From Paenibacillus algicola (GTDB taxonomy: Bacteria > Bacillota > Bacilli > Paenibacillales > Paenibacillaceae): 64,000 nt of DNA. The stretch covers positions 2,290,501-2,354,500 of the forward strand of contig NZ_CP040396.1 in NCBI RefSeq assembly GCF_005577435.1, given 5' to 3'. Each line of letters begins with the position of its first letter. The stretch's first letter is position 1. The translations under genes were made by a program, and so were the position numbers. Below, in pieces: positions 13,579-47,201 of this stretch. Below the pieces are notes generated by a model. That model searched no databases and had not been told where the DNA came from. It saw only the letters and a list, made by a program, of their open reading frames with translations.

Positions 13579-13635
13579 TTTAATTGTTTCATCCCACACA
13601 ATAATGAATAATATGGTTAAGGGGGAAATTTGAAG

Positions 13636-14583
13636 ATGTTGTCTCACATGAAGAAGGTTTGGATTCCTGCAACGCTCATTCTGGTGCTGGCTTTGGCTGG
13701 CTGTGCCGGATCAAATGAGAAAAACGGCAGTACGGCTGAAGGCAAAATCAACATTGTTACCACGATCGCTCAAATTGCAGAGCCGGTTTCTGTCATCGGC
13801 GGTGACAAGGTGCAGGTGTCTAGTCTTATGGGTCCTGGTGTTGATCCTCATCTGTACAACGCTACTCAAGGTGACATCAGCAAACTCGACCAAGCAGATA
13901 TTGTGTTTTACAGCGGGCTGCATTTAGAAGGGAATATGACGGAAGTATTTGAGCAGATTGGCAAATCCAGACCTGTAGTTGCGATTAGTGAATCTGTATC
14001 CGAGGATCAGCTTCTGACCGATGAAACAGGCGCTATTGACCCTCATGTCTGGTTCGACCTCGAGTTATGGGAGGTTTCATTAACGGCAGCGGTCGAGGAG
14101 ATGAAGACATTTGCTCCGGAGCATGCAGAGGAATTTGAGAACAATAAGCTGAAATATTTCGAAGAACTGCAGGCGCTCAAGCAGGAAGCTCAGGAGAAGC
14201 TGGCTTCAATCCCCGAGAATCATCGCGTGATCGTAACGGCACATGATGCGTTCGGCTATTTCGGCAGAGCCTATGATATGGAGGTTGTTGGACTCCAGGG
14301 ACTAAGCACGGAGGATGAGATCAGCGTATCGGATATTGATCAAACGATTGATATTCTAATGCAGCATCAGGTTCCTGCCGTATTTGTAGAAAGCAGCATT
14401 AATTCCAAGTCCGTTGAAGCGGTAGTGGAGGGGGCGTCCAGTAAAGGGCTGGATGTAAAGCTGGGCGGTGAGCTGTTCTCTGATGCGATGGGCGATGAGG
14501 GAACCGCAGAAGGAACCTACCTGGGCATGTACAGACACAATGTTAACATCATCTATGAGGCGCTGGCCGGAAAGGGAGAGTAA
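13636..14583 (+). CDS. mntA: Manganese ABC transporter, metal-binding lipoprotein
   Basis: A 315-residue cluster-9 (TroA/PsaA-type) solute-binding lipoprotein. The lipobox is LALAGC (Cys23). Metal ligands are H72 in DPHLYN, H137 in DPHVWF and H203 in AHDAFGYF, with the fourth expected as Asp in the later LFSDAMG region. The His-His-His-Asp set occurs in both Zn and Mn binders. The GLQGLSTEDE segment, the gene order (lipoprotein, ATPase, two permeases) and the MntR-like boxes favour Mn. The ATG at 13636 has AAGGGGG ten bases upstream; an in-frame TTG at 13630 is the alternative. Confidence 0.85.
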   Translation: MLSHMKKVWIPATLILVLALAGCAGSNEKNGSTAEGKINIVTTIAQIAEPVSVIGGDKVQVSSLMGPGVDPHLYNATQGDISKLDQADIVFYSGLHLEGNMTEVFEQIGKSRPVVAISESVSEDQLLTDETGAIDPHVWFDLELWEVSLTAAVEEMKTFAPEHAEEFENNKLKYFEELQALKQEAQEKLASIPENHRVIVTAHDAFGYFGRAYDMEVVGLQGLSTEDEISVSDIDQTIDILMQHQVPAVFVESSINSKSVEAVVEGASSKGLDVKLGGELFSDAMGDEGTAEGTYLGMYRHNVNIIYEALAGKGE

Positions 14584-14586
14584 TGC

Positions 14587-15315
14587 ATGAGTGTGATTGA
14601 GGTTCAAGGCATAACCGCATCATACCGGAAGAATCAAGTACTTAAAGATGTGAATTTTACGGTTGAGCCTGGCACGCTGACGGCCATCATTGGACCTAAC
14701 GGTGCCGGGAAGTCAACTCTGCTCAAGGTGCTGCTGGAGCTTCATCCGAAGCTCTCCGGCTCCACCGCTTTCTTCGGCTCTTCTCTGCAGAAGATGAAGA
14801 AGCGGATCGGTTACGTTCCGCAGCGGGGCTCGGTGGATTGGGATTTTCCAACGAATGCATTAGATGTCGTCACCATGGGGCTCTATGGCCAAATAGGCTG
14901 GCTTCGACGTCCAAACCGCTCTCATCGTGAACGCGCTATGGCATGTCTGGAGCAAATGGGGATGGCCGACTACGCTAATCGGCAGATCAGTCAGCTGTCC
15001 GGCGGTCAGCAGCAGCGGGTGTTTCTGGCTCGGGCGCTGGTACAGGAAGCAGATCTGTATTTTATGGATGAACCGCTTGCCGGGGTTGACGCCGCAACCG
15101 AGAAAGCGATTATGCATACCTTAAAGGAGCTTAAAGATAGAGGCAAGACCGTGATGGTCGTGCATCATGACCTCCAGACGGTGGAGGATTATTTCGATCA
15201 TGTACTGCTGCTGAACCGCTCGGTATGGGCTCACGGACCCACGGAGGAAGTATTTACACAGGAGAATGTTTACCGTACCTACGGCGGAACATTGCGCTGG
15301 ATGAAGGAGGCGTAA
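14587..15315 (+). CDS. mntB: Manganese ABC transporter, ATP-binding protein
   Basis: A 242-residue ABC ATPase that powers metal import. Walker A is GPNGAGKST (36-44), the signature is LSGGQQQR, and Walker B reads LYFMDEP. The switch His is in MVVHHDL. It starts three bases after mntA stops, with AGGGAGAG inside the mntA end, so translation is likely coupled. Confidence 0.92.
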   Translation: MSVIEVQGITASYRKNQVLKDVNFTVEPGTLTAIIGPNGAGKSTLLKVLLELHPKLSGSTAFFGSSLQKMKKRIGYVPQRGSVDWDFPTNALDVVTMGLYGQIGWLRRPNRSHRERAMACLEQMGMADYANRQISQLSGGQQQRVFLARALVQEADLYFMDEPLAGVDAATEKAIMHTLKELKDRGKTVMVVHHDLQTVEDYFDHVLLLNRSVWAHGPTEEVFTQENVYRTYGGTLRWMKEA

Positions 15316-15318
15316 CGA

Positions 15319-16242
15319 ATGTTATCTTGGTTATCGCCGAATACACAGTGGGTCCTGCTCAGTACGTTGATCTTAGGCATGGCTGCGGGGATGATCGGCT
15401 GCCTGGCCTATTGGAAGAGACAGAGCCTCATGAGTGACGCATTGTCTCACGCCGCCCTGCCTGGCGTAGTTATTGCCTTTGCGCTCACTGGAGTCAAGAG
15501 CCTGCCCGTGCTGCTTATCGGTGCTGCAATCAGCTCTTTGCTGGGTGCGCTCATGATTCAGGGCATTCGTTCCTCCAGCAGGATTAAAGAGGATACTGCG
15601 ATGGGCATTATATTATCTGTGTTTTTCGGATTTGGCATCATGATGCTGACCCTGGTTAGTCGTTCTGCTGGCGGAAGCCAGAGCGGCCTTGACGGATTTA
15701 TATTCGGGCAGGCTGCATCGATGGTTCGGCAGGATGTGTATATTATGCTCGGCATGGCGGTGCTGGTCATCCTCGTGGTATTTATCGGCTTTAAAGAATG
15801 GAAGCTGTTTCTGTTCGATCCCGGCTTTGCGAAAGGGCTTGGCTTATCTGCGAGATGGATGAACAACATCTATTTATCGGTTCTCGTGCTCGTCATTGTC
15901 ATCGGCATCCAAGCCGTTGGTGTCATCTTGATGGCTGCGCTCCTCATTATTCCCGCGGTCAGTGCGAGATACTGGAGCCACTCGTTCAAGACGATGGTGG
16001 TCACCTCCGGATTGTTCGGGGGCATGGCCGGGATGAGCGGCAGCCTGCTGAGCTCGCTGGGCAGCGGCTGGCCCACAGGACCGTTTGTCGTGCTGACCTC
16101 ATCGGCCATTTTCCTCGTCTCCCTTGTATTTGGAGCTGAGAAAGGGCTTCTCGTTCAGGCGCTTCAGCTTCGCAGTCAGAAGAAACAATACCAGCATAGT
16201 ACCTGGCAGCACAAGACCGTTCACGTGAAGGAGGCAGACTAA
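15319..16242 (+). CDS. mntC: Manganese ABC transporter permease 1
   Basis: A 307-residue ABC-3-type permease with about eight membrane helices. It has the SDALSHAALPGVV motif that contacts the ATPase and a metal path. GAAGGAGG precedes the ATG, which lies four bases after mntB. It pairs with mntD as the heterodimeric channel. Confidence 0.9.
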   Translation: MLSWLSPNTQWVLLSTLILGMAAGMIGCLAYWKRQSLMSDALSHAALPGVVIAFALTGVKSLPVLLIGAAISSLLGALMIQGIRSSSRIKEDTAMGIILSVFFGFGIMMLTLVSRSAGGSQSGLDGFIFGQAASMVRQDVYIMLGMAVLVILVVFIGFKEWKLFLFDPGFAKGLGLSARWMNNIYLSVLVLVIVIGIQAVGVILMAALLIIPAVSARYWSHSFKTMVVTSGLFGGMAGMSGSLLSSLGSGWPTGPFVVLTSSAIFLVSLVFGAEKGLLVQALQLRSQKKQYQHSTWQHKTVHVKEAD

Positions 16243-16243
16243 C

Positions 16244-17128
16244 ATGACCTACGCCATGTGGATTCTCCTTACCGCCTCTCTAGTCGGCCTTTCCTGCGGG
16301 ATCATCGGGGCCCTGCTTATTCTGAGAAAAATGGCTATGATGGCCGATGCCATCAGCCACAGTGTGCTGCTAGGCATTGTGGTAGCTTATTTGATCACAC
16401 GAGAGCTGAGCGGCATTCATATGCTGATTGGCGCAGTGATTGCGGGCCTGTTGACAGCCGTTCTGGTGCAGTGGTTCCACGCCCGCGGTGTTCAGCAGGA
16501 TGCTTCGATCGGGGTTGTATTTACTACGATGTTCGCGATCGGTGTTGTATTGATCGCAACTCAGGTCGGGAATGCGCACCTGGATACCAAGCATGCGCTG
16601 ATGGGCGAAATCACCTTTATCCCATGGGACACGATTGCTGTTCCGGGACTCGGAGAGGTGCCGCGAGCGACGCTGACCTTATCCATCGTGCTTCTGCTGG
16701 TCATTGCGGTGATTGCGCTGTTCTACAAGGAGTGGAAGATTACATCCTTTGACCCCGCGCTGGCCGCGAGTCTTGGCATTCCGGTGGTGCTTATGCATTA
16801 TCTGTTTATGTCCATGGTTTCACTGACAACGGTGGCCGCCTTTGATGCGGTTGGAGCCATTATGGTTGTGGCCATGCTTATTACACCGGCAGCCTCCGCT
16901 TATCTATGGACAGATCGTCTGTCTGTAATGATCGGGCTTAGTGCCATGTTTGGTGTGATCTCGGCCATTACGGGCTACTATATCGCCGTCTGGCTGGACA
17001 CGTCCATCTCCGGCTCCATGGCCTTTGCTACGGGATTGGTGTTCTTGTTCAGCTTTCTGTGCTCGCCAAGACATGGTCTTGCCTCCCGCCTTCGTTATCG
17101 TCCGAACATGTCGGAGCAGAAGCTGTAG
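16244..17128 (+). CDS. mntD: Manganese ABC transporter permease 2
   Basis: A 294-residue ABC-3-type permease paralogous to mntC, with about eight helices and the ADAISHSVLLGIV motif. It starts two bases after mntC behind GAAGGAGG. It ends the operon, and a strong terminator follows at 17151. Confidence 0.9.
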   Translation: MTYAMWILLTASLVGLSCGIIGALLILRKMAMMADAISHSVLLGIVVAYLITRELSGIHMLIGAVIAGLLTAVLVQWFHARGVQQDASIGVVFTTMFAIGVVLIATQVGNAHLDTKHALMGEITFIPWDTIAVPGLGEVPRATLTLSIVLLLVIAVIALFYKEWKITSFDPALAASLGIPVVLMHYLFMSMVSLTTVAAFDAVGAIMVVAMLITPAASAYLWTDRLSVMIGLSAMFGVISAITGYYIAVWLDTSISGSMAFATGLVFLFSFLCSPRHGLASRLRYRPNMSEQKL

Positions 17129-19759: not shown

Positions 19760-20080
19760 TACCAGGGCAAGAAGGCTGTGGCGCGCGGAACTCAATGTGG
19801 ATAGATGGTTTGAAATTCAACGCCGCAGGGTGGACCGTGAATAAAATTGCCACTGAAGAACACGACGAAAGTTCGATTCCTAATTCCGGATCGGGCTTTT
19901 GTCTTAGGAAGGTTTCATGAAGTATGTTGTTTCATGGACTCGATGGAAATGAATCAGCCCGTATTCAATCCAATATTATTCATCATTTTGAAACGGCTTC
20001 AATGTTCAGACGTAAGTTTGTTATACGTTGTAAAGATTAACAGTTCAGAGTCGAAGTCAAGGCAGTCGGGGGAAGCTTAC
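19760..20080 (+). other. Gap before the isoprenoid-synthase fusion gene
   Basis: 321 bases without a convincing gene. It holds an 11-codon frame at 19917-19952 (MKYVVSWTRWK) behind AGGAAGG, which could be a leader peptide but is too short to trust. I found no clear promoter or terminator. Confidence 0.3.
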
Positions 20081-22477
20081 ATGACACATCACAATGACAA
20101 TCAGGATAATGACAATCAGGCCGCAGGATGGTATGACAAGAAAGCAGCGCAGGCTTCACAATATTTTGAGCTGTTGTCAGCCTATGTTCATCGGCAAGAC
20201 TATGCAGAACACCTTATGGAGGAGGTAAAGGCATGGAAGCAGCAGCATCACAGGCCTTTACTTTCACGGCTCCTGCAAGTCCGCAAGGAGCCGCGACCAG
20301 CGGAAAACTTCACTTATCTGAAGTATCTTCAGTATAACGGGCGGCTGAACGACTACTTGAGTCGCAGCATCACTTATATTTATATGCGAGATCTTGGAGC
20401 TTCTCCTGAGAATCCGGCAATCCAGCAAAGGATACAGAACCTGACCGTAAAAATAGAACATCTACTTGAACAGCACGTTAACTCAAATCATGAAGCTGCA
20501 AACGGCAATTTGTTCAGCTTTAAGGATCTATACCGCTGGGGACAGAAGGAACAGATTGAGCCTGTCATCATCTGGCTCATTGAGAAGCTGAAGCAAGTGC
20601 GCGACCATATTCCGGAAGGCATTCATAAGGAGCATGCCCAAAGAAAGCTGATCAAACTGATCGCAGGCGTCGTTATGCACGCCCTGGAGGAGCTGGGAGA
20701 GGACGTTTCTGCCGAGGAGCGCAGCAGAAGACTGGGCGAAGCCATCAAGCTGGGTTATTCTTACGGATTGACCTATCCTTTTATCGATGATCTTCTGGAC
20801 TCCGATGTGCTCAGTCCAGAAGATAACCTGCAATATGCTCAAATGATCCGCCATGCTCTTGTCACAGGCATTGTTCCCGAACCGGGGGATTGGGCCCGGC
20901 AGCATGAGCAGCTGGCAGCATTTATTTATCGTGAGCTGAAATCAGCCTTTGAATATATACAGTCCATCCAGCGTGACGAAACGCGAAGTGCGTTCTTTGA
21001 ACAGACTTATGTGTTTTTTCATGCCCAGGAAATCGACCGGATCAAACGGCTGGATTACGCAGCGTACAGCAACGAAGAGCTTTATATTCCGATCATTCTG
21101 AAGTCTGCTGCTTCCCGGACTATTGTTCGTTCTGTTCTTGCAGCGGACGCGAGTGCAGACTATGAAGAGCGCACCTTTTATTTTGGGATTTACAACCAGC
21201 TGGCCGATGATTTCGCAGATCTGTATGAGGATCTGGAGCATCAGTCTGTAACGCCGTACACCTATTACTTGACCCACCGAGAAAACCGCCCGGATCTGAT
21301 CAATCCATTTGAATTGTACTGGGCTGTCGTTCATTATCTCATTCATCATTTGTATCAAGGTCATAAGCAGGTACAGGAGGCGATTCTAAGCAGAGCGATC
21401 AGCAGTCTGCACAGATGCCGGTCCCGGCTCGGCTATGATAAGTATAAGTTCTTGATGAAGGAGCTCGAACCAAGCCACACCCCGTTTGCGGTCCTGCTGC
21501 AGCAGCTGGTTCGTAACAGTAATCCTGTCCAATTCTTCGACAAACTGCTACGGGATCAGCTGATCAGCTCACTGCGCAGTCAGGAGGAAGAAAAGGCTCA
21601 GTTCCGACAAACCATGGAGAATGCGCGACAAGTCATACAAGCATCCCTTCCGGTAACCTTGCCGCAAGAAGACCAAGCCTTTACCGCTGACATCATTGCT
21701 GCTGCGAATTACAGCCTGCAGGGCGAGAGCAAGCTGCTGCGCCCTGTGATTGCTTATGTCATGGGAGTCCTGGAATACGGATTTGCGGAAACGGACCTCC
21801 TGCCTTTACTCCGATCCCTGGAGTATATGCACACAGCCTCGCTTATTTTTGATGACTTGCCCTCTCAGGATAATGCAGCTACCCGGCGAGGGCGGCCCAC
21901 GCTGCATGAGGTCTACGATAGTGCCTCCGCAGAGCTGGCCGGAGTCTACCTTATTCAGAAGGCGATGCAGGAGCAGGCTTCCTTGACCTCCTTTGATCCT
22001 TCCCGGGTGCAGTCTCTGATGAAATATTCCGCGGAGCGCGCGGGGGATATGTGCGCCGGCCAGATGAAGGATCTAAGCACAAGAGGCCAGACGCTGACGC
22101 TAGAGGAGCTGAATGCGATTTGCTACTACAAGACAGGTATTGCTTTTGAGGCAGCTTTGGTCATGCCTGCTATTCTTGCCGGGACACCGCCCGACGTCAT
22201 CGACAGCATCAAGAAATTTGCTTACCATGCAGGCATCGCGTTCCAGATCCAGGACGATGTCCTGGACACCGAAGGCCATGCACAGACCCTCGGTAAAGAT
22301 ACCCAGATGGATCGGCAGAACGGAAATTCTACCTTTGTGACCATTCTTGGCGTGGAGGGTGCCCGGCAAGCCATGTGGGATCATTATTGCTCTGCCATCG
22401 AGGCGGTAGAGAAGCTAAAATTAAAAACGGCTTTTTTTCAGCATTTTCTGGATTACATTATTCATCGCAGCCACTGA
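20081..22477 (+). CDS. Tandem isoprenoid-synthase fusion: terpene-synthase-like plus prenyl diphosphate synthase
   Basis: A 798-residue protein starting at the ATG at 20081 behind GGGGGA. The C-terminal part (about 520-798) is a trans-prenyl diphosphate synthase: KLLRP at 551, first Asp-rich motif DDLPSQD (D591, D592) followed by RRGRPTLH, and second motif QDDVLD (D725, D726, D729). The bulky N-terminal part (about 20-500) has its own DDLLD (D236, D237, D240) and DDFAD (D376, D377, D380). These are 140 residues apart, against 134 in the C-terminal domain. A KLIKLIAGVVMHAL segment at 189-202 lines up with KLLRPVIAYVMGVL at 551-564, but the Arg-Pro substrate residues are lost. I infer a second class I isoprenoid fold, perhaps a cyclase using the C-terminal domain's product. 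The C-terminal assignment is secure; the N-terminal role is inference. Confidence 0.8.
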   Translation: MTHHNDNQDNDNQAAGWYDKKAAQASQYFELLSAYVHRQDYAEHLMEEVKAWKQQHHRPLLSRLLQVRKEPRPAENFTYLKYLQYNGRLNDYLSRSITYIYMRDLGASPENPAIQQRIQNLTVKIEHLLEQHVNSNHEAANGNLFSFKDLYRWGQKEQIEPVIIWLIEKLKQVRDHIPEGIHKEHAQRKLIKLIAGVVMHALEELGEDVSAEERSRRLGEAIKLGYSYGLTYPFIDDLLDSDVLSPEDNLQYAQMIRHALVTGIVPEPGDWARQHEQLAAFIYRELKSAFEYIQSIQRDETRSAFFEQTYVFFHAQEIDRIKRLDYAAYSNEELYIPIILKSAASRTIVRSVLAADASADYEERTFYFGIYNQLADDFADLYEDLEHQSVTPYTYYLTHRENRPDLINPFELYWAVVHYLIHHLYQGHKQVQEAILSRAISSLHRCRSRLGYDKYKFLMKELEPSHTPFAVLLQQLVRNSNPVQFFDKLLRDQLISSLRSQEEEKAQFRQTMENARQVIQASLPVTLPQEDQAFTADIIAAANYSLQGESKLLRPVIAYVMGVLEYGFAETDLLPLLRSLEYMHTASLIFDDLPSQDNAATRRGRPTLHEVYDSASAELAGVYLIQKAMQEQASLTSFDPSRVQSLMKYSAERAGDMCAGQMKDLSTRGQTLTLEELNAICYYKTGIAFEAALVMPAILAGTPPDVIDSIKKFAYHAGIAFQIQDDVLDTEGHAQTLGKDTQMDRQNGNSTFVTILGVEGARQAMWDHYCSAIEAVEKLKLKTAFFQHFLDYIIHRSH

Positions 22478-25689: not shown

Positions 25690-25711
25690 ATTGAGGAGGA
25701 GAGTGACTCAC

Positions 25712-26035
25712 GTGCATACAATAGATCTGGATCTCAAAACAAAGTTTATCCGCGGCTTCTCCGATAAGACGCGTCTGCAAATCGTGAATATATTGAAAAG
25801 CGGAGAGAAGACGGTATCTCAGATTGTAGAGGCTGTGCAAGGCAATCAGTCCAACATCTCCCAACATCTGGCATGCTTGAAGGGCTGTGGCATTATTGTC
25901 GGCAGGCAAGAAGGCAAGTATATCTACTATGCCCTGCGTAACGAGCAGATTTTGTCTCTCATCCAGCTGCTGGATGAGGTATATGAGCAGGTTCAGAACG
26001 AAATGATGGCTTGCGATAACCCGATAATGGAGTGA
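25712..26035 (+). CDS. ArsR/SmtB-family metal-responsive repressor
   Basis: A 107-residue winged-helix repressor. The helix-turn-helix spans about residues 30-65 (KTVSQIVEAVQGNQSNISQHLACLKGCGIIVGRQEGKYIYY). A CadC/CzrA-type role is inferred from the adjacent Cd/Zn ATPase. It lacks the N-terminal Cys-x-Cys region of longer CadC proteins; a C-terminal Cys near residue 100 is present. The GTG at 25712 is chosen because GAGGAGG lies at a workable distance upstream. Its stop lies just before the ATPase start. Confidence 0.85.
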   Translation: MHTIDLDLKTKFIRGFSDKTRLQIVNILKSGEKTVSQIVEAVQGNQSNISQHLACLKGCGIIVGRQEGKYIYYALRNEQILSLIQLLDEVYEQVQNEMMACDNPIME

Positions 26036-26040
26036 TGAGC

Positions 26041-28338
26041 ATGAATGAGGAGAAGAAAGAGACGGGCTGCTGTCAGGATTCTTCTTGTACCACGAAGGAA
26101 ACGGTACAGCCTAAACATCAGATCAAGGTTGACCTTCGGCCAAAGGTGCAGGTCAGTGAACGTGCTGACGCTTGTCAGGATGATTGCTGCACAGCAGCAC
26201 CTGCAAAGGCTGTTGAGAGCATTACACCGGCTGCACACATGAATGCTTCCTCGAAGATCAGAACCTATGCTATAGAGGGCATGGATTGCGGTGCATGTGC
26301 TGCAACGATTGAGAAGCAATTCAGGGGCGATCCGGCGGTGCAAAGCGTCAGCGTTAACTTTTCCACCGGTAAAATGCAAATGGAGCACGATCATCCGGTA
26401 GAGGAAATTATCAAGCGGGTGTCCAAGGCCGGGTTTCAAGCCACCCTGTTGACCAAGAAGCAGCAGAAGGCACCGGCGGCACCTACTGCCAAGCCATATC
26501 CCCTGATCCTTTCCGGCGTGCTGCTAGCCTTAGGCTTGATCAGCTCATTTACTGGCTTCTCTGCTGCATGGAGTACATTTGCTTATGTCTTGTCGATACT
26601 CACCGGCGGCTACAAGCCGGCTAAAAGCGCATATTACGCCCTCAAAAGCAGAGCTTTAGATATGAATGTGCTGATGACGGCTGCCGTCGTTGGCGCGGCC
26701 CTGATTGGAGAATGGCTAGAAGGAGCCACGGTCGTCTGGCTGTTCGCCCTTGGCAACATGCTCCAGACCGCATCAATTGAAAGAACTCGTCAATCCATCC
26801 GGAACCTGCTGGACCTCGCGCCGCCTGAAGCATGGGTTAAGGAGCAGGATAAGCTTGTCAAGGTGCCGGTCGAGGAGATGAGGTTGGGACAGATTATTGT
26901 AATCAAGCCCGGGGATCGTATTCCGCTGGATGGCAGGGTCGTGGTGGGAGAGTCCAGTGTTAACCAGGCTCCTATTACAGGTGAGTCCATTCCGGTCGAT
27001 AAAGAGATCGGGGATGCTGTCTACGCAGGAACGATTAACGAGCAGGGTACGCTGGAAGTAGAGGTTACTGCTCTAGCGGAGGATACAACGATCTCCAAGA
27101 TCATCCATCTCGTAGAAGAAGCACAGGAGAAGAAAGCGCCGACACAGGCTTTTGTCGATCGCTTTGCTCAAATATATACGCCTATTGTGTTTGCAGCAGC
27201 CTTGCTCACCATGGTGCTGCCTCCGGTAATCGGGCTGGGAAGCTGGGGAGAGTGGTTTTATAAAGGGCTGGAGCTGCTCGTGGTAGCCTGTCCTTGCGCG
27301 TTGGTTATTTCTACGCCGGTTGCCATTGTTTCCGCCATCGGAAACGCTGCGAAGCATGGGGTGCTCATCAAGGGTGGCGCATTTTTGGAAACGGCTGGCC
27401 GCATTAGTGCCATTGCTTTTGACAAAACAGGCACCTTGACGGAAGGCAAGCCCTCCGTATCTCACCTGGAGGCCTGGAAGGTCAGCGAATACGAGCTGCT
27501 CTCCATTGCGTACACACTTGAAGAGTACTCAACGCATCCGATCGCTAAAGCGATCACGGCCTATGCTCAAAGCAAAGGCGTCGTCAAACAGAAGGGAACC
27601 GGATTTAATAACAAGGTAGGACGCGGTGTCGAGGCTGAAATGAACGGAACCACGTATTGGGCCGGGAATATGAAGCTGTTTCAGCACCTGCATATGCCTG
27701 ACTCCATACAATCCAAAGTGCAGAAGCTGGAGCAGGAAGGGAACACCTTAGTATTGATCGGCACAGCGGATCGGCTGCTAGGGCTGATTGCGGTGTCGGA
27801 TCGCCTTCGGCAGGTGACCGTAGATGCACTGCAAGGCATTCGGCAGACGGGAGTGCAGGAGCTGGTCATGCTGACCGGGGATAATGAAGGAACCGCAAAG
27901 CATGTGGCTGCGAACTCCGGGGTATCCCGGTATTTTGCCGAGCTGATGCCAGAGCAGAAGGTAAGTGCTATTGAGAAGCTGCAGCACGAAGGCCACCGCG
28001 TAGCGATGGTCGGCGATGGAATAAATGATGCTCCTGCTCTGGCTGCTGCGGATCTCGGCATCGCCATGGGCGGCGCCGGGACGGACACCGCTATGGAAAC
28101 CGCAGACATTGTGCTGATGGCCGACAATCTGCAGAAGCTGCCCCATACGATCAAGCTCAGCCGTAAAGCGCTCGGCATCATCAAGCAGAATATTTGGTTC
28201 TCGCTGATCATCAAGGCTGCTGCGCTGGTCCTAATCTTTCCTGATATATTGACACTATGGATCGCCGTGTTAAGCGACACGGGGGCCGCACTGCTCGTAA
28301 TCTTGAACAGTATGAGACTGCTGCGAGTGAAGGGATAG
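26041..28338 (+). CDS. cadA: Cd/Zn/Pb-exporting P1B-type ATPase
   Basis: A 765-residue heavy-metal pump. Two cysteine clusters (GCCQDSSC near residue 10, CQDDCC near 46) precede one HMA domain with GMDCGAC (C83, C86). Next come the metal-channel C417-P-C419, phosphorylation site D461 in DKTGTLTEG, HP in STHPIAKAI, and GDGINDAPAL. The last helices have Lys in LIIKAAAL and Asp in LSDTGAAL, as in the ZntA/CadA class that exports divalent Cd, Zn and Pb. The ATG at 26041 follows GGAG; an earlier ATG at 26035 overlaps the repressor stop. The extra N-terminal cysteine pairs may be added metal sites. Confidence 0.92.
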   Translation: MNEEKKETGCCQDSSCTTKETVQPKHQIKVDLRPKVQVSERADACQDDCCTAAPAKAVESITPAAHMNASSKIRTYAIEGMDCGACAATIEKQFRGDPAVQSVSVNFSTGKMQMEHDHPVEEIIKRVSKAGFQATLLTKKQQKAPAAPTAKPYPLILSGVLLALGLISSFTGFSAAWSTFAYVLSILTGGYKPAKSAYYALKSRALDMNVLMTAAVVGAALIGEWLEGATVVWLFALGNMLQTASIERTRQSIRNLLDLAPPEAWVKEQDKLVKVPVEEMRLGQIIVIKPGDRIPLDGRVVVGESSVNQAPITGESIPVDKEIGDAVYAGTINEQGTLEVEVTALAEDTTISKIIHLVEEAQEKKAPTQAFVDRFAQIYTPIVFAAALLTMVLPPVIGLGSWGEWFYKGLELLVVACPCALVISTPVAIVSAIGNAAKHGVLIKGGAFLETAGRISAIAFDKTGTLTEGKPSVSHLEAWKVSEYELLSIAYTLEEYSTHPIAKAITAYAQSKGVVKQKGTGFNNKVGRGVEAEMNGTTYWAGNMKLFQHLHMPDSIQSKVQKLEQEGNTLVLIGTADRLLGLIAVSDRLRQVTVDALQGIRQTGVQELVMLTGDNEGTAKHVAANSGVSRYFAELMPEQKVSAIEKLQHEGHRVAMVGDGINDAPALAAADLGIAMGGAGTDTAMETADIVLMADNLQKLPHTIKLSRKALGIIKQNIWFSLIIKAAALVLIFPDILTLWIAVLSDTGAALLVILNSMRLLRVKG

Positions 28339-37728: not shown

Positions 37729-38646
37729 ATGAAATGTTTGAATGACGGAAACGTCCAGGTCAAGCAAGAGAAGGACGGCGAAGATCTTCGGGCAGATTGT
37801 GATCATTGTTTTGGGCTATGCTGTGTCTCTCTATGTTTCTCAGCTTCTGAAGGTTTCCCCATTGATAAAGAAGCAGGTCAACCGTGTATCCAACTGCAGC
37901 ATGACTTTCGGTGCAATATTCACAAAAGCCTGAGTGCCCGTGGTCTTAAAGGGTGTTTGGCATTTGACTGTTTCGGAGCGGGGCAGAAGGTTTCTCAGAT
38001 TACGTTCCGCGGGCAAGACTGGCGCCAGTTTCCGGACACAGCTAAGTCAATGTTCAACGCATTCCTGGTTATGCTGCAGCTTCATGAATTGATGTGGTAT
38101 TTGACAGAGGTAATGACGCTTCAAGCGGGAAAGCCTGTACATGACGAGATTCGCAGCTTGCTGGAGATGACAGAACGATGGAGTCTGCTCCCAGCTAACG
38201 AGCTCCTGGAATTAGACATGATTGAACACCGTGCACACGTAAATACACTGCTTATTAAAACCAGTGAACTAGTGCGTGCGGAGGCTCGAAGTAAGCAAAA
38301 ACATGGAACGAGGCCGAAAAAAGGGGGTTCCGCTCGTAAAGTGAAGATGGGTAGAGGGGCCGACCTCATTGCCGCCGATCTGAGAAAAGTGGACCTGAAA
38401 GGAGCTTATTTGAGAGGAGCGTATCTCATTGCTGCTGACCTGAGAGGAGTGAATCTGAGGGGGGCAGATCTCATCGGTGCAGATTTTCGTGATGCCGATA
38501 TTAGAGGAGCTGACCTCTCCAAGAGCATTTTTCTAACTCAATCTCAGATCAATGCGGCTAAAGGCGATGATCATACACGATTACCTTTGGCACTCACACG
38601 TCCACAGCACTGGGACGATCCTTTTGTGGACGGAGCTTTCAGGTGA
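37729..38646 (+). CDS. Cys-rich pentapeptide-repeat protein
   Basis: A 305-residue protein. The N-terminal quarter is cysteine-rich (CDHCFGLCCVSLC near 23-36, then further Cys at about 53, 62, 76 and 81), enough to bind zinc or an iron-sulfur cluster. A helical middle follows. Residues from about 210 to 265 form at least nine A(D/N)L-type pentapeptide repeats, which fold as a right-handed beta-helix. Related proteins protect topoisomerases or act in signalling, but the role here is unknown. The ATG at 37729 follows an AAGG-rich stretch. Confidence 0.75.
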   Translation: MKCLNDGNVQVKQEKDGEDLRADCDHCFGLCCVSLCFSASEGFPIDKEAGQPCIQLQHDFRCNIHKSLSARGLKGCLAFDCFGAGQKVSQITFRGQDWRQFPDTAKSMFNAFLVMLQLHELMWYLTEVMTLQAGKPVHDEIRSLLEMTERWSLLPANELLELDMIEHRAHVNTLLIKTSELVRAEARSKQKHGTRPKKGGSARKVKMGRGADLIAADLRKVDLKGAYLRGAYLIAADLRGVNLRGADLIGADFRDADIRGADLSKSIFLTQSQINAAKGDDHTRLPLALTRPQHWDDPFVDGAFR

Positions 38647-38714
38647 AATTACGAATACTCAGCCCATCGAGCCGCTGGTTAAACACTAACCAATATGTCT
38701 GGAGGTTTGTACCT

Positions 38715-40700
38715 TTGAAGGGGATTAAATACATCATTTGTTTCTTTGTTTTTTGTTTTGCGATGGTGATTGTGGCTGAAAGTCAGATTTTTCGTCTGGA
38801 TCAGTTTCACAGCCCATACCGGTACACCTCTTTGTATCTTCAATATGGTCAGGACGAGAAGGAAATGGTTCAAGATATTCTCCGGGCTGCAGACAGAAAT
38901 AACGTGAAGGTGTTTACCTATATCAAAACTCCGACTGGCAATTACGATTCCATAAAGCTATATGGAACGCCAAATTACCAGCAGCACCTTAAATTTGAGC
39001 TCAGTATATATGATAAGCATTATAAAAGCTTATTTGTGGGCGACATACATTTCAGCTTTCATTCGCTTGAAGAAATCCAAGGTTTTAAAGATGTCCATGA
39101 TTTTTATATTATAGGGGGTAAAGATGAAGCCGATCAATTTAAGTCTGAGCTAATAAATACGTATGCCGGTAATTTTCCCCGGGAAGGCTATCAGAACCGA
39201 GATGCACAGTTTACCGTGTTTGCAATTTGGGGGTTAGTAGCAGGCATTGTTCTCTTGCTCACGTACTATGATGTACTTCGTCAAAGAAAGGAAAATCTGA
39301 TTCGCATTTCGATGGGCGAAAGAGTAAGCACGATCTTGATTAAAAATATCGTTAGCGACACCCTAGTTTTTGCGCTTATGTTTAGTATTATATTCATAGG
39401 ATTAAATCGCCTCACGTCTATTACACATCAATTCACGGAGTCACTCTTATGTATAGCTGTTCTTCTTTTCTTGAATGGATCGGTTTATTTAAGTCTTCGT
39501 ACCACGCACATCAAACAAGCCTTCTCAAATACTAGCAGCAATACGAGGAGACTTCTCACGCTTAATTATGTCTTCAAGGCCTTTACCGTTATAGTAACTA
39601 TAGCTATTATTTCCAGTAATCTTGTTATGATTCATGATTCCTATCAGCTATATAAACAAAAGCCATTTTTCGAAAAGCATGCTCAATTTTCTTATATTTA
39701 CATACAATATAGACCGTATGTTGATCAAAACGGTACAGCTCATGCAATGTTTGAAGAAAGCGAGCTATTACAATCCTAATTCTATTCTGAACACTTCAAT
39801 TCAACTAAGGCTACATTAATTTCGGTGGTTTACAGCCCTTTGTCCACATCGCATCCAGCCGTTATGGCCAATCGAAATACATGGAGCTATTTGTCAGATC
39901 AAATGGACCCGCTGAAAAGCGAGCCCTTGGAGCATGATTATTACTTTATACTTCCAGCAGATCTGTTGAATGATTCCCGCATTATAGAAGAATTAAAGCA
40001 AGAATATTTATTTTTCGAGAATAAAGGCATCCAAGAAAATCAATACAAAGTTATTTATTATGATAAAAAGGCTTATGTTACAGCAATCAATGAAAACAAC
40101 AACTACGGAAGTGAGCGTCTGGAGAATCCCGTTATTATGTACGATAATACGGTACCTGAGTCGCAGCCTCTTCATGTTAGTCCCCATCGAGCCAATTACA
40201 TCAGAGAAGTGATGTATGATATTACAGACGAGGCGTTCGATCAATTTCTTGTGAAGCATCAGCTTACTGAATCGAATGCCATACTATCTAAAACCAATGT
40301 GATGGACAAGTTCAATAACCAGTGGAATGCTGCCAAGAAAATTCTTTATATAAACCTTGTCTTTAGTTTACTAGTGCTCATATTAGAATTCATGATTATC
40401 CTCTCTTTAATCAAATTAGAATATGAAGCAAACGCAATCGAACTTTCAGTGAAAAAAGTACTCGGCTTCAGCGTTTGGGAGAAACATAGAAAGATGATTC
40501 TCATTACACTCATTACAACGATTCTAGGTACGGCCTCTGCTGCAGCGATTACCATGTTGATGAACTATCATCTTGTCGGTTATTTGGCAGCTGCTGGCGC
40601 AGTAATAATGATGTTAGAGTTGATTGTTATTTTCAGCAACATTAAGCGTATTGAAAAAGCTAACATACAACGAATCTTGAAAGGGGGGAATGTGACATGA
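38715..40700 (+). pseudogene. Bacteriocin-associated ABC permease (DUF1430 type), interrupted by one TAA
   Basis: One frame of 662 codons encodes a permease with an N-terminal helix, a large outer domain, helices around residues 170-300, a second outer domain, and C-terminal helices. It resembles the YxeA/DUF1430-type proteins linked to lactococcin-972-type export or immunity. It is cut by a single in-frame TAA at 39777-39779. The frame stays open and protein-like on both sides (…ESELLQS, stop, FYSEHFNSTK…). The TTG at 38715 follows GGAGG by nine bases. Its ATPase is the next gene. Either the gene is inactivated, or two half-proteins are made, or the base is a sequence error. Confidence 0.75.
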
Positions 40701-41317
40701 TATCCATTCGAAACCTCAATAAGTCTTTTGGCGGCAAGACATTATTCTCCAATTTTAATATGGAGATACAAGCTCAAGATTTTGTGATCATTTCGGGTCC
40801 CAGCGGTTGTGGTAAGACCACTCTTCTGAATATGATCGGTGCAATAGAGTCTGTTGAGTCTGGCATCATCGAGGTAGATGGCGTTGATATCAGCAAGAAG
40901 AACAATCAACTTCAATATTTTCGCACCAAAGTAGGTTTTTTATTCCAGAATTTTGCATTGGTAGATCACAAAACAGTGCGTAACAATTTACTAATGATTC
41001 GAAAAAATTCAAGATCAAATCTTTCCATAGAGGAAGCCTTGCAAAAGGTGGGCCTCGAAGATAAATTAAATTCCAAAGTGTACACTCTTTCAGGAGGTGA
41101 ACAACAACGGGTAGCACTTGCTCGTTTGATGCTTAAGAAATGCGATGTTATTCTGGCCGATGAGCCCACGGGCTCACTAGATCATAATAACGCAAAGACT
41201 GTTCTTGCTATTCTCAAAGAGTTCAATCAGCAGGGCAAGACCATTGTACTTGTCACACACGATGAGAAAATCATACATCAAGGGAACAAAGTGGTTTCTT
41301 TGAGCGAAAATAAATAG
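40697..41317 (+). CDS. ABC transporter ATP-binding protein, bacteriocin-export type
   Basis: A 206-residue ABC ATPase: Walker A GPSGCGKTT (34-42), signature LSGGEQQR, Walker B ILADEPTGSLD, and switch His in LVTHDE. The size and motifs match MacB/LolD-like ATPases that work with two-domain permeases. Its ATG overlaps the permease stop (ATGA), behind AAAGGGGGG. With the permease interrupted upstream, its function is in doubt. Confidence 0.88.
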   Translation: MISIRNLNKSFGGKTLFSNFNMEIQAQDFVIISGPSGCGKTTLLNMIGAIESVESGIIEVDGVDISKKNNQLQYFRTKVGFLFQNFALVDHKTVRNNLLMIRKNSRSNLSIEEALQKVGLEDKLNSKVYTLSGGEQQRVALARLMLKKCDVILADEPTGSLDHNNAKTVLAILKEFNQQGKTIVLVTHDEKIIHQGNKVVSLSENK

Positions 41318-41336
41318 AAAGCTTGGTGTCCTTCCC

Positions 41337-41855
41337 ATGACCCGAATGATGCATCTCCAAGCCCTCAAGCACCCCAACCGTCCTCATTACGAATGGAGCG
41401 GGGAGCGGCTTGAACAGAACGACGAATATGTTATGGTCTTGTGCCAACCGGGCCGCAAGCTGATTCACCATACCAAGAAAAGTGTATTCATCATGGATAA
41501 TACTTCACTGGAGCTGTTTTTTTAAAAAGAATGGTTCACCGTGGCTATCGGCATCGAGGATGGAAAGGCGGTCTCGTACTACTGCAATGTAGCGATGCCG
41601 TCGATCGTTACAGAAACAGGGATCTCTTTCGTAGATCTCGATCTGGATTTAATCAAGCAGCCTGGCGATGATTGGAAGGTGGTTGACGAGGACGAGTTTG
41701 CTTCTAATAGCATCATCCTCAATTATTCAGCAGAGCTGCAGACCAGTGCCAGAGCGGCACTGGCACGCTTGCTGGAGCGTGCGGTCAATGGAATATTTCC
41801 ATTTGACGAACATGTACTCGGGCAGCTGCCTGCCGGCTATAACCATCAACAATGA
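41337..41855 (+). pseudogene. DUF402 protein interrupted by one TAA
   Basis: A frame of 173 codons resembles DUF402 proteins, a family that includes nucleoside-phosphate phosphatases. Typical segments are HYEWSGE, CQPGRKLIHHTKK, SYYCNVAMPS and FVDLDLDLIK. A TAA at 41523-41525 falls between LELFF and KEWFTVAIG, where relatives as I remember them have a Leu-type residue (TTA to TAA would be one change). The rest is intact. No good ribosome site precedes the ATG. Confidence 0.75.
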
Positions 41856-41966
41856 CAAGCCCCTGGAATTTAAACTCTGGTCTTTACCGTTGCTCTAGGC
41901 TTTATGGAGAACGAAGCCAGGTTACACAACTTCAAACACGGATCAGAGCCTACAATAAAGGAGAGA

Positions 41967-42125
41967 ATGATGTTAAAATTGGGTGGCAATGAAGTAAAAA
42001 TATCTGTACCTGAGTCAACGTTTAGCTTAGTTGAAACGAATAAAACCTATTTCATAACATACCATCATAATTTCTTCAGAGGTAACTATATAAAAAATCT
42101 CAATCTATCTGATCCACCCAAGTAA
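41967..42125 (+). CDS. 52-residue hypothetical protein
   Basis: A start at ATG 41967 or 41970 behind AAAGGAGAG. The product (MLKLGGNEVKISVPES…NLSDPPK) is beta-rich with an aromatic run (YFITYHHNFFRGNY) and no membrane segment. It resembles the C-terminal part of a small SH3-like domain, so it may be a fragment. Function unknown. Confidence 0.5.
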   Translation: MMLKLGGNEVKISVPESTFSLVETNKTYFITYHHNFFRGNYIKNLNLSDPPK

Positions 42126-42224
42126 TACATTAAATGCAGCGAAGATCGTGAGCAGAAACATTTATATTTTGAATCGATCTCAATCTACTTATAGAAAGTC
42201 GCTAATATTCTCAAGAACAGGCGC

Positions 42225-42605
42225 TTATGCGACATTCCTATTTTGATAAATGAGCATGTATAAAGTATACAGAGGAAAGGCGATAAAGAGAAAGAAGTAG
42301 TAATTACTACCAATAATAAAATACATTGTTACTAGTAATACTATACCTGCTAAATTAAGAATAACGATCCGGTACATGGTTTGAACGAGGACGTACTTAC
42401 CTATGAGAAAACTCAAACTGCTTGCAACAAAATTGAATAAGTAAGCAAACATACTTAAGAACAAAAATGATAAAAACCACTGACCACGATCACGATGTAG
42501 AGAGGAATTCATTTCTGAAGTTGCCATTAGGGCGCCAATAAGAATGCTTATTAAAAATGAAATAAGAGTTACACCAACAACAAATTCCTTTTTTAATTTC
42601 TCCAT
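42225..42605 (-). CDS. Four-helix membrane protein of unknown function
   Basis: A 126-residue, strongly hydrophobic protein with about four helices (10-28, 43-66, 75-95 and 98-118). AAGGAG lies at good distance before the ATG. The region is AT-rich. No family recognised. It is oriented against its neighbours and stands alone. Confidence 0.65.
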   Translation of the reverse strand: MEKLKKEFVVGVTLISFLISILIGALMATSEMNSSLHRDRGQWFLSFLFLSMFAYLFNFVASSLSFLIGKYVLVQTMYRIVILNLAGIVLLVTMYFIIGSNYYFFLFIAFPLYTLYMLIYQNRNVA

Positions 42606-42792
42606 AATACACTCCTTAAATATGTAATTTATCTTTTATAATAATATATACATACTAAAATACCAAGGATTACATATTATACTATATATGACACTAAATA
42701 ATAATAAAATCAATGAATTATGAAACTTTTACTATAGCATGGGTGTTATTATAGCTGAACGGATTATTTAATCGGTTATAGGAGAAATTTAT

Positions 42793-43863
42793 TTGAAAAA
42801 AACTCAGATCTCAATTTGGTTATTGTGTATTGCAATGTTACTGGTTTCATGTTTTTCTTCTAAAGAATCAAGTTCCGAAACATCAAATACAGACTCCCGT
42901 GCTCCTGCCGCTAGTCCAGAGAAGCAATCACCGGCCCCTACAGCAGATTACATTACATTGACTTATTCAGAATATGCGACTACAGATGAGAATGGAGCCA
43001 TAAAGACACAAATACTAAGCTATGATACGGATACAAAGAAAATAAAAACAGTCTTTCAATTCGATTATACAGCTCAATATCCATTGGGCTTCTATGATAA
43101 ACCAAATCAATTAGTATACTATACTCAAAGGGTAGGAACAGACAAGGATCATGGAGATCAAATCTTTGTCAAAGATTTATTGAGTGAAAAAAACACTCAA
43201 CTTACAGATAACTTATTTGCAGTCAACTATATTATTCCCTCAGGGGATCAATTGTTTTTTGTGGCTAATGTTAAAGGTGAGCAAGCCATACGATTAGGAG
43301 CTGTTGATCTAAACTCCATGGAGATGACACTATGGGGTGATGATGACATATTGGTAGAAGCTATTACATTAGATCAAAATAACAAAAAAATATATGCTTC
43401 TGCGTACTCTTTGAAGGAAAGGCAATATAATCTGGCACATCAAGATGGACCCGTGGGACAGAATAATTTCAAAATGCCAACGTATACGATATACGAAACG
43501 GATTACAATTTAAAAGAAAAAACAAAGCTATTTAGTAACAATTATTGGATTCGAATGCTCATGAATAAAGAAGGTCATGTTATTGCATTTGGTGATAAGA
43601 AATATAACCAGGGGCAAGTACCCTCTATGGTTGTTGATTACGATACTGGAAACAAGACTATTAGTTTGAGTAAGTGGGGAACTACAAGATTACAAAGGGG
43701 AGAGGCTAATTACTCTTATGACGGCAGCAAAATATATGCGATAGCAGTCGTTAAAAATGAACGTGGATTATTTGAATATGATGTGAAAAGCAATCAATTC
43801 ACTGCTCTATTTACACCTACGGCTGGGTTCATTAATAATATTCAGGTTGTAAGAGGATTCTAA
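42793..43863 (+). CDS. Lipoprotein with beta-propeller-like domain
   Basis: A 356-residue lipoprotein: signal peptide ending LLVSC (Cys20), a Ser/Pro-rich linker (about 21-50), then a repetitive beta-strand domain of the WD/TolB-propeller kind (repeats such as ILSYDTDTKKIKTVFQF and YEYDVKS-like turns). It is anchored on the outer membrane face. The start is TTG at 42793 behind GGAG. The next gene, 24 bases away, is also membrane-attached; the two may form a pair. No specific family recognised. Confidence 0.75.
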   Translation: MKKTQISIWLLCIAMLLVSCFSSKESSSETSNTDSRAPAASPEKQSPAPTADYITLTYSEYATTDENGAIKTQILSYDTDTKKIKTVFQFDYTAQYPLGFYDKPNQLVYYTQRVGTDKDHGDQIFVKDLLSEKNTQLTDNLFAVNYIIPSGDQLFFVANVKGEQAIRLGAVDLNSMEMTLWGDDDILVEAITLDQNNKKIYASAYSLKERQYNLAHQDGPVGQNNFKMPTYTIYETDYNLKEKTKLFSNNYWIRMLMNKEGHVIAFGDKKYNQGQVPSMVVDYDTGNKTISLSKWGTTRLQRGEANYSYDGSKIYAIAVVKNERGLFEYDVKSNQFTALFTPTAGFINNIQVVRGF

Positions 43864-43886
43864 TACAAAGTATAACGGTAGAGATC

Positions 43887-44693
43887 GTGGACTGGATATG
43901 GGAGCTGGTGCTCCGGCGCCATTTTACCCATGAAATAAAGGAGGCGGATTCATATGATCCAAATGAACCTCAATGGTCGAGCCAAATGCAATTGATAAAA
44001 GAAGAGGTGGCTAATGTGAGAAAACAACGATGGTTTTGGAAGACATCTGCAGCAGCGGCAGGTATTACTTTAATTGGATTTATCGTATTTGCTTGGTTTT
44101 TCCCGATGAATCTGACAAATCCGGCTGCTGACCCCGCTATTGATCAGACTTTAAGTCAGGTCATCACAGAAAGGTATCGCACCCTAAACGTATCGGGTTT
44201 CGACTTAGATGAAATCGTACATAAAGAATGGACCGACAATGGTGTACTTGTATTTTATACAAAAGATTACGGTCAAAATGATGATGAAGACGTGGATTTG
44301 AACTTGGAATATTGGAAGAAGACACTTACGGGCTGGAAATGGGTAACAGGAGGCAGTTATCAGTTCAGCAGCCTGAAAAATTTGAAGCAGGATGAGAGCC
44401 TGATCTTTGAATATGTAACAGGAACTGAACCGGACGGATCGGGAGAACCGCCGCTACCGATCGTCTATGGGGAATCGTTTAAACCGGATGTAGTTAATAT
44501 TGAATTGACTGATAAACAGAATCAATATAAGCAGGTTGCGAAAATGATTTATATTCAAGACGACCGCACGATCTGGTTTGCCCGTTTTCCAATTTCCATG
44601 GGTATGAACATCGAAATTCAAGGCCTAGATGAGTCCGGAAAAGCCGTGGTAATAAAAAACATGGATATTCCGGCTACGCCTATTGAGAAGTGA
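43887..44693 (+). CDS. Membrane-anchored protein of unknown function
   Basis: 268 residues from a GTG at 43887: an N-terminal cytoplasmic part (about 1-50), one helix (about 54-73, AAAAGITLIGFIVFAWFF), and an outer domain with many acidic residues. The ribosome site is weak. The layout resembles anti-sigma-like or sensor proteins, but no sigma gene is adjacent. It is probably co-transcribed with the lipoprotein upstream. Confidence 0.65.
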   Translation: MDWIWELVLRRHFTHEIKEADSYDPNEPQWSSQMQLIKEEVANVRKQRWFWKTSAAAAGITLIGFIVFAWFFPMNLTNPAADPAIDQTLSQVITERYRTLNVSGFDLDEIVHKEWTDNGVLVFYTKDYGQNDDEDVDLNLEYWKKTLTGWKWVTGGSYQFSSLKNLKQDESLIFEYVTGTEPDGSGEPPLPIVYGESFKPDVVNIELTDKQNQYKQVAKMIYIQDDRTIWFARFPISMGMNIEIQGLDESGKAVVIKNMDIPATPIEK

Positions 44694-44868
44694 ATTAGAA
44701 ATCAAAAAATACTTATCCCTTCTCCCGTTAATGCAAAGATTTTTGAAAACAAGTGGCTATACAGCACTTTGTTTTGATATAGAGGGAGCACTACATGCCC
44801 AGTGGGCTGAGTTCGAAGAATTAAGCAATGCTCTATGAGTTTTTCAGGTAGAGGGTTAAGGGGAAAAT

Positions 44869-45297
44869 ATGATGAAAATAAAATTATTTCATATCTTAAT
44901 ATGCGCTTCATTGTTGGTCTTGATTCTAAGTAGCTGCCAAACTTCTAATCAGTCCGATATGGTAGGAGTAAGCAAGGAATCAAAAGAACTAGAGACCTTC
45001 TATCCTAGCGACATTACACTGCTTGATTCTATTGAAATAATGAGTGGCGATAATGGTACAAAAAAAACAACTACAGATCAAATACTAATTCAGGAATGGA
45101 TCGAAAAGGTGCGCCACTTGAAAATCATACTTGATCCAGACCGAGAAGATTCATCAGGGGTTTTGTTCCATGTCACTATGTTAGAGCAAGGTGAAAAAAA
45201 GTTGTATATGACGCCAATCAATATTAATCATTACCGGATGGAGACGCAATCGGAATTAGCAGACCGAATGACAGAGCTTTACGATTCTATAAAATAA
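44869..45297 (+). CDS. Small lipoprotein of unknown function
   Basis: A 142-residue lipoprotein with a signal peptide ending LSSC (Cys23) and a short outer domain. AAGGGG precedes the ATG. The domain has a beta/alpha pattern seen in small Bacillales lipoproteins without known function. A terminator follows. Confidence 0.7.
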   Translation: MMKIKLFHILICASLLVLILSSCQTSNQSDMVGVSKESKELETFYPSDITLLDSIEIMSGDNGTKKTTTDQILIQEWIEKVRHLKIILDPDREDSSGVLFHVTMLEQGEKKLYMTPININHYRMETQSELADRMTELYDSIK

Positions 45298-45347
45298 GGT
45301 GATAATACCACTAAAGTCATGTGTCGGGTGACAAAACATAGTAATAT

Positions 45348-45374
45348 AAAAAGCCGCTGATATTGCGGCTTTTT
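45348..45374 (+). terminator. Terminator after small lipoprotein
   Basis: AAAAGCCGC / GCGGCTTTT stem followed by T-rich sequence. Confidence 0.85.
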
Positions 45375-45438
45375 ATATTTATGTTATCAAGTTCTTGTCA
45401 AAACACAATGATTTTATAAGCGAGCAGTCCCGAGCCAA

Positions 45439-45493
45439 GGACAAGAACTTGTACCGATTGCCGAAAAGGACAAGAACATGTTCCGATTACCGA
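45439..45493. repeat. Two tandem 26-base repeats, period 29
   Basis: GGACAAGAACTTGTACCGAT and its near-copy starting at 45468 both end in CCGA; they differ at three positions over 26 bases. The nonamer GACAAGAAC also occurs inverted as GTTCTTGTC at 45391-45399. Confidence 0.6.
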
Positions 45494-45674
45494 TTAGTTC
45501 TAATTCATTAAGGTAACAGGCAGGATAATCCAAAGATTTCGCGAATACTTTTTTCTTGTGATTATTAGCGAAGTTCGTAGATAGGACGTTAGTAATAAGT
45601 TATCGGAGCTGTGGGAAGAGAAACAAAACAAGAACAACATATGTACAAAATACGAGTTTTGTGTATTAGTAGTA

Positions 45675-45995
45675 CTAAGCAAAATCTTCTGTCTCTTTTA
45701 CCATTGTTTTCAGAAGCCTAAGAAACACTTTCCGGCGAATACTCGGCGTAATACCATATTTAAGCATACCGACTGGACGGATCATCCCCTCCCTCTCTAT
45801 TCCTATAAGCCACGCATAGATGATACCACAACAAAGAGCCCTCTCAGTATATAAATAAAGAGAGCATCCGGTCCCATTGCTTACGAAATACAAGAATTTT
45901 CCTTCCATATTCTTTGCAAACCGTATTTGATGAAGTACCAGCCTATTATCATTGACTCCTACAGCCTCAGAACAAGTTACATAGTGAATTAACAC
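45675..45995 (-). CDS. Doubtful 106-codon frame
   Basis: A minus-strand frame from a GTG with a weak ribosome site. The C-terminal end (SIRRKVFLRLLKTMVKETEDFA) looks protein-like, the rest less so. No family recognised. It lies in the 45298-46090 gap, which otherwise holds a terminator and the repeats above. It may be a remnant. Confidence 0.2.
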   Translation of the reverse strand: MLIHYVTCSEAVGVNDNRLVLHQIRFAKNMEGKFLYFVSNGTGCSLYLYTERALCCGIIYAWLIGIEREGMIRPVGMLKYGITPSIRRKVFLRLLKTMVKETEDFA

Positions 45996-46090
45996 TGCGT
46001 AAAGAACCTTACAACTTTATACGGGTAATAAGCGTTAATACCTATAATTAGTCAGTCATGTACAAAATTAAGGATAGGAGTGAAAATGTC

Positions 46091-47194: not shown

Positions 47195-47201
47195 GCGATG
47201 A

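Follow-up and report, generated by a model that had tools for sequence, protein, structure and literature searches.

Does a bacterial genome carry, in a single gene, an enzyme that joins a terpene-synthase-like domain to a prenyl diphosphate synthase? The question is raised by an open reading frame (ORF) on the forward strand of a 64,000-nucleotide stretch of Paenibacillus algicola DNA (contig NZ_CP040396.1, positions 2,290,501 to 2,354,500), which we call the window and from whose first letter coordinates are counted. The frame at 20081–22477 starts with ATG and encodes 798 amino acids (aa). It is still open upstream as far as a TTG at 19847; set against this longer option, the homologues measure 788–842 aa and mostly 791–800 aa among the 120 matches listed, whose database names include "polyprenyl synthetase family protein" and "geranyl transferase". 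The initial annotation had proposed two isoprenoid-synthase-type modules in tandem on one chain, which is borne out by the open frame, the Pfam match of the C-terminal domain and the predicted fold of the N-terminal domain. Our literature search, limited to open-licence PMC papers, recognised no paper on a bacterial fusion of such a layout.

The C-terminal module is a prenyl diphosphate synthase, as had been proposed: PF00348 matches residues 540–770 with an E-value of 5.1e-49 and 167 bits, compared with a cut-off of 27 bits. The NCBIfam model FPPsyn covers residues 513–798 with 199.9 bits, below its 275-bit cut-off, and the predicted model has the fold of a trans-prenyl diphosphate synthase. 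For the N-terminal module an isoprenoid fold had been set as the test. Its predicted model, searched alone, resembles class I terpene and prenyl synthases; a non-isoprenoid fold did not occur. A search with the full-length model gave rows filled by C-domain matches. The Z-values of these matches are moderate and residues ~1–92 are barely covered. The N-terminal pair of DDxxD motifs was found 140 residues apart as described (D236-D237-x-x-D240 and D376-D377-x-x-D380-x-x-x-D384), compared with 134 residues from D591 to D725 in the C-terminal module, and the KLLRP-like segment (R188-K-L-I-K192) does lack Arg-Pro. The order of the helices and the placing of the invariant residues would fit an arrangement in which both motifs face one cavity.

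All 54 aligned sequences, the window's included, share D236, D237, D240, D376, D377, D380, D384, R188, K189, K192, K341 and R346. The N-terminal Asp residues, R188, K189, K192 and K341 are likewise invariant in a 57-row alignment, and both N-domain DDxxD motifs are intact in all 80 loci examined in a scan of genome contigs, which are the best 80 of 437 confirmed places; stricter motif patterns missed 8 and 2 of these loci, which keep the Asp residues. Invariance of the acidic and basic residues across the alignments argues that the N-domain motifs are more than chance. The invariant residues cluster on the helices bearing the Asp motifs, K341 and R188–K192, as well as on helices 89–103 and 409–424, and K341 would correspond to the Lys of the prenyl-synthase KTG. 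In the C-terminal module the Asp-rich motifs, the RR following the first of them, the KTG Lys and K-x-x-R-P are invariant in 54/54, with Ser for Pro in one distant copy of a 17-row set. Nonsynonymous to synonymous rate ratios (dN/dS, NG86) ranged between 0.06–0.19 for the N-domain and 0.02–0.14 for the C-domain for 14 of the 18 eligible pairs, among which species recur, so that purifying selection on the N-domain is of the same order as on the C-domain. Together, residue invariance and purifying selection indicate that both sites are maintained. In one of the 80 loci, from a Paenibacillus rigui record, the frame of the fusion stops after 649 aa, short of the second Asp motif of the C-domain, reflecting either a broken gene or an error in sequencing or record.

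The best explanation of the whole, which we consider probable, is a bifunctional class I isoprenoid synthase whose C-terminal module feeds its product to the N-terminal one, driven by an extracytoplasmic function (ECF) sigma factor and making a membrane-acting terpenoid. The simplest mechanism would be, by analogy, that of the fungal chimeric terpene synthases (PTTS, e.g. PaFS), in which the terpene synthase (TS) domain precedes the prenyltransferase (PT) domain and which an excerpt of PMC8307374 states to be unique to fungi. The C-terminal module would condense dimethylallyl diphosphate (DMAPP) or farnesyl diphosphate (FPP) with isopentenyl diphosphate (IPP), giving an all-trans prenyl diphosphate of more than C15, most likely C20 to C30. 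The metal-dependent, terpene-synthase-like N-terminal module would ionise a prenyl diphosphate, most simply that made by the C-terminal module, and release a terpene, either cyclised or linear. The gene, which stands alone, would be switched on during envelope stress by a sigma-W-like ECF factor, for which reason a membrane-acting terpenoid is the most likely product; it may be a membrane lipid of a new kind. The data themselves show the homology and predicted folds of the tandem modules, conserved sites under selection in both of them, the changed chain-length residue and a conserved promoter sequence. We infer the activity of either domain, with the N-domain as a cyclase using the C-domain's product, as well as the transfer between domains, the product, its role and the regulation in the cell.

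Table 1. Features of the fusion gene in the window and sigma-W-type sites in the P. algicola genome
Feature	Position	Strand	Basis or remark
Two-module isoprenoid synthase gene	20081..22477	+	798 aa
N-terminal module, residues 1-512, terpene-synthase-like all-alpha domain	20081..21616	+	structural matches, profile link
C-terminal module, residues 513-798, trans-prenyl diphosphate synthase	21617..22474	+	Pfam, NCBIfam, fold, tree
R188-K-L-I-K192, invariant R188, K189, K192	20642..20656	+	placed by eye; where prenyl synthases carry IPP-binding K-x-x-R-P
N-domain first Asp motif DDLLD, residues 236-240	20786..20800	+	alignment
K341, invariant	21101..21103	+	alignment; near K-GG of clostridial family in profile alignment
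N-domain second Asp motif DDFADLYED, residues 376-384	21206..21232	+	alignment
A586, fifth residue before first Asp motif, chain-length gate	21836..21838	+	alignment; Tyr in FPP synthases
C-domain first Asp motif DDLPSQD, residues 591-597	21851..21871	+	alignment
C-domain second Asp motif DDVLD, residues 725-729	22253..22267	+	alignment
Sigma-W-type (ECF) promoter, TGAAAC-N16-CGTA	19989..20014	+	sequence match
Own-genome site 1 of 5			upstream of fusion gene
Own-genome site 2 of 5			before gene pair, second gene flotillin (PF15975, PF01145)
Own-genome site 3 of 5			between ECF sigma gene and zf-HC2 anti-sigma-like gene, then cdaA
Own-genome site 4 of 5			upstream of small glycine-rich protein gene
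Own-genome site 5 of 5			inside a frame

We assessed the chain length from the residue five positions before the first Asp motif of the C-domain (-5). This is Tyr in nine FPP synthases and Ala (11) or Ser (1) in 12 long-chain types; the fusions carry Ala in 54/54 aligned sequences and 80/80 loci, and Ser in the most divergent copy (L051/L208). In the FPP synthase of Bacillus stearothermophilus small residues at -5 give longer chains. Ala in place of Tyr therefore predicts a product longer than C15. An excerpt of PMC10563020 reports that residues of the B. stearothermophilus enzyme control the C10/C15/C20 distribution and that some fungal chimeric terpene synthases cyclise C30 hexaprenyl diphosphate. 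A tree groups the C-domains into a single clade (100/100) that falls within the IspA half and is separate from the long-chain type, types being assigned by motif and only for the own genome's two by NCBIfam. The C-domain resembles IspA-type FPP synthases in its motifs, its fold and as its nearest group in the tree, but differs in being fused, in having Ala (once Ser) for Tyr at -5, and in carrying Phe (Tyr in L048) rather than His before the first Asp. Apart from the fusion, all ten genomes searched hold two or more PF00348 genes; those read include a long-chain type in 10/10 and an FPP type in nine, the tenth (L198) not being read. The window's own C-domain has the longest end branch among the eight C-domains in the tree, and its IPP-binding segment reads KLLRP, with residue 552 (21734–21736) deviating from the K-R-x-R-P of 51/54 sequences.

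Pfam and NCBIfam scans placed the window's N-domain in no curated family above threshold. PF00348 reached 13.9–14 bits, below its 27-bit cut-off, and PF10776 and PF00494 gave no match at E ≤ 10, in searches where most weak hits are lost to the HMMER filters. A resemblance in motifs to phytoene synthase was considered and dropped. Across the family, PF00348 hits at E ≤ 10 occur for 24 of 57 N-domains, the best with 3e-4, and the first four Foldseek rows for the N-domain model are geranylgeranyl diphosphate (GGPP), solanesyl and octaprenyl synthases. These matches, as well as the invariant K189, K192 and K341, which would lie about where prenyl synthases bind diphosphates, favour a rather unlikely reading in which the N-domain is a second prenyl-chain partner, pairing within the chain like the subunits of heptaprenyl or geranyl diphosphate synthases and elongating the product or setting its length, so that a long prenyl diphosphate is the end product. 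Comparison of the model with class IB terpene synthase structures gave TMt 0.49 (5yo8) and 0.52 (6loo) at E 0.01–0.03, and a family's absence from the structural rows does not in itself speak against it. Compared directly as profiles, the N-domain showed no significant similarity to the C-domain or to YtpB; neither did YtpB to the C-domain, so the direct profile test lacks power. Against PDB sequences the N-domain profile gave weak matches to unrelated chains and to one heptaprenyl synthase (E 2.1).

A sequence link was found in a sample of 398 genomes across the phylum, which yielded one weak distant match (E 1.5e-4, 24% identity over residues 226–396) in a 399-aa frame cut by the contig end (L214:6-1199, minus strand) that no Pfam model matched. 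Its family comprises 2340 database proteins at E ≤ 1e-3, measuring 402–466 aa among the 120 listed (P0242–P0361). Two of these 120 are named "class 1 isoprenoid biosynthesis enzyme" by NCBI, the other names shown being hypothetical or uncharacterised, and the named members are clostridial. Comparison of a profile of 57 N-domains with one of 55 members of this clostridial family gave a probability of 93.6 and P 2.1e-7 over residues 226–395, with both Asp motifs in register and 150/505 columns aligned. An alignment of the family with the C-domain profile (probability 11.6, P 0.0026) runs through K-x-G and the second motif, and among PDB sequences the family's top match is an octaprenyl synthase (E 0.041). 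Unlike the fusion, the clostridial proteins stand alone and have no prenyl synthase domain.

Upstream of the gene, TGAAAC-N16-CGTA at 19989–20014 fits exactly the sigma-W consensus of B. subtilis given in an excerpt of PMC2375139 (TGAAAC-N16,17-CGTA). It is the sole match in the window, where 0.14 are expected and 14 of 100 shuffles have one, and is weak alone. The wider pattern [TC]G[ACT]AAC-N15-17-CGTA was found upstream of the fusion gene in 60 of 99 distinct regions (out of 101, with some genomes perhaps represented twice), compared with a mean of 0.33 and a maximum of 3 in 100 mononucleotide shuffles. The spacer is N16 in 56 of these 60, and the other strand has no match. Before the widening, the exact sigma-W pattern had given 2 against 0.33 in 88 regions. 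A narrower pattern in an earlier set occurred in 44/87 fusion upstreams versus 1/233 control upstreams of machine-called, not curated, ORFs from the same loci. Patterns and counts are after the fact, because the site was noticed by eye in upstream regions and the pattern then widened and counted. The site is mainly a Paenibacillus trait, present in 31/37 named loci with 13 further loci not read; the remaining six and one uncultured Paenibacillaceae locus make seven, of which five have a GCAAC variant. It was also seen in one genome of another family (L049), but in none of 27 named loci that we take to be Bacillaceae/Planococcaceae, nor in the Cohnella locus. In the 88 regions, counts of sigma E, F, G and K patterns stayed at chance level, and a loose sigma-H pattern gave 6 versus a shuffle mean of 1.6 (largest 4).

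A search of the own genome for TGAAAC-N15,16-CGTAWR gave five sites (Table 1) versus two for the reversed pattern. The strict pattern GTAACC-N15,16-CGTATA showed no excess in six relatives, with 12 sites, three of them the fusion's own, versus 14 reversed. No sigma-W-type site was found in the 6 kb scanned at the own ytpB, the HepT and FPP synthase stretches being outside the scan. The promoter case therefore rests on conservation at the fusion gene itself; the consensus and the few sites in one genome suggest assignment to sigma-W. According to an excerpt of PMC8144471, sigma-W governs floA and floT in B. subtilis and sigma-M the ytpAB operon, a precedent for an isoprenoid enzyme under ECF control. 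The site before the glycine-rich protein gene lies close to the genome's PF00494 squalene/phytoene-type synthase gene (G000:C1:2111604-2118673; L156, L157), which by eye is a few kb from a desaturase-like gene.

The site shared with a flotillin-containing gene pair fits a reading that we hold to be quite unlikely, namely that the N-domain moves or cleaves a prenyl group as a transferase (like ComQ), a head-to-head synthase or a phosphatase (like YisP, yielding farnesol), the alcohol acting on membrane order with flotillin under sigma-W. Farnesol complements the biofilm defect of B. subtilis yisP and apparently stabilises membrane microdomains (PMC8144471, excerpt). Speaking against it are the missing PF00494 match (at E ≤ 10, after HMMER filtering) and the neighbourhood: no conserved neighbour or partner gene adjoins the fusion in 21 loci (window and 20 others), and no ComX-like short gene was recognised next to it by eye in the ORF list, so that the ComQ-like version was rejected. 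That the N-domain is catalytically dead and serves an otherwise ordinary GGPP-type synthase only in structure or regulation, as its lack of a curated family might suggest, is highly improbable given its invariant metal-binding and basic residues and its purifying selection.

A gene cluster was also rejected, as the commonest neighbour cluster, probably ABC-type ATPases from their first residues, occurs in 9/21 loci and is variably placed. In the window the gene is flanked, by eye, by a zinc/manganese-type ABC uptake operon and by an ArsR-type regulator with a heavy-metal P-type ATPase (13630–17128 and 25691–28338). A stretch at 40–48 kb has a GC content of 38–40% versus ~50% around it (40001–48000; 38643–41317), holds FtsX-type permease-like and ABC ATPase genes by eye and was possibly acquired.

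The N-domain was detected in 43/398 sampled Bacilli genomes, each time in an open frame of 776–878 aa, and in 34/37 genomes of its own family compared with 9/361 elsewhere. The best 80 of 437 places belong to Paenibacillus, Neobacillus, Sporosarcina, Psychrobacillus, Robertmurraya, Mesobacillus, Fredinandcohnia, Cohnella, Brevibacillus, an uncultured Paenibacillaceae and unassigned Bacillus. Two-module proteins of this kind are common in Paenibacillus and are also found elsewhere in the Bacillales. A core query, sized so as to leave out full-length fusions, returned 130 proteins; the 120 listed (43–59% identity, 225–728 aa) look like pieces of the fusion or shortened calls of it and not like a separate family. 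In the phylum sample 9/398 genomes matched: the distant one, seven from the own family, and a fusion from beyond the class (G518, contig 1, 488000–502000; L215) with 46% N-domain identity in an 810-aa frame, perhaps acquired by transfer.

How does the fusion compare with known systems? Terpene synthases carry a canonical NSE/DTE consensus as their second motif, and the fusion's DDFADLYED has Asp where Ser/Thr and Glu are expected. Since this triad and a fungal origin are absent, we do not file the fusion, known here from sequence and predicted models, as a PTTS. It further differs in being bacterial (Bacillales), in its additional N-terminal helices, in standing alone and in its stress-type promoter. 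Like PTTS (PMC8307374, excerpt) it combines a predicted N-terminal class I isoprenoid fold with a C-terminal prenyl synthase in one chain, and its first N-domain motif (D236–D240) is of the DDxxD/E type. An isoprenoid fold in the general sense is also common to class IB/large terpene synthases such as YtpB (DUF2600), which uses the C35 chain made by HepST and belongs to the sigma-M regulon (PMC8144471, excerpt), an ECF link paralleling the sigma-W-type site. Unlike the fusion, YtpB matches PF10776 and is a separate gene. Replacement of YtpB by the fusion was rejected, as 40/43 fusion-bearing genomes also hold PF10776.

A bolder version of the bifunctional-synthase reading, which we offer tentatively as somewhat short of an even chance, is that bacterial chimeric terpene synthases evolved independently of fungi from the clostridial class 1 lineage and became a near-core enzyme of the Paenibacillus family. 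Under a sigma-W-type stress factor it would make a membrane terpenoid directly from IPP and DMAPP, as a bacterial equivalent to hopanoids or to the farnesol of flotillin domains. If this holds, Paenibacillus and part of the Bacillales would share a hidden terpenoid pathway that has no gene cluster and sits behind generic prenyl-synthase names, and chimeric PT-TS enzymes would no longer be confined to fungi as has been stated. A family of over two thousand database proteins would gain its first functional anchor, and the question which isoprenoid lipids serve the envelope-stress response would become testable in one gene.
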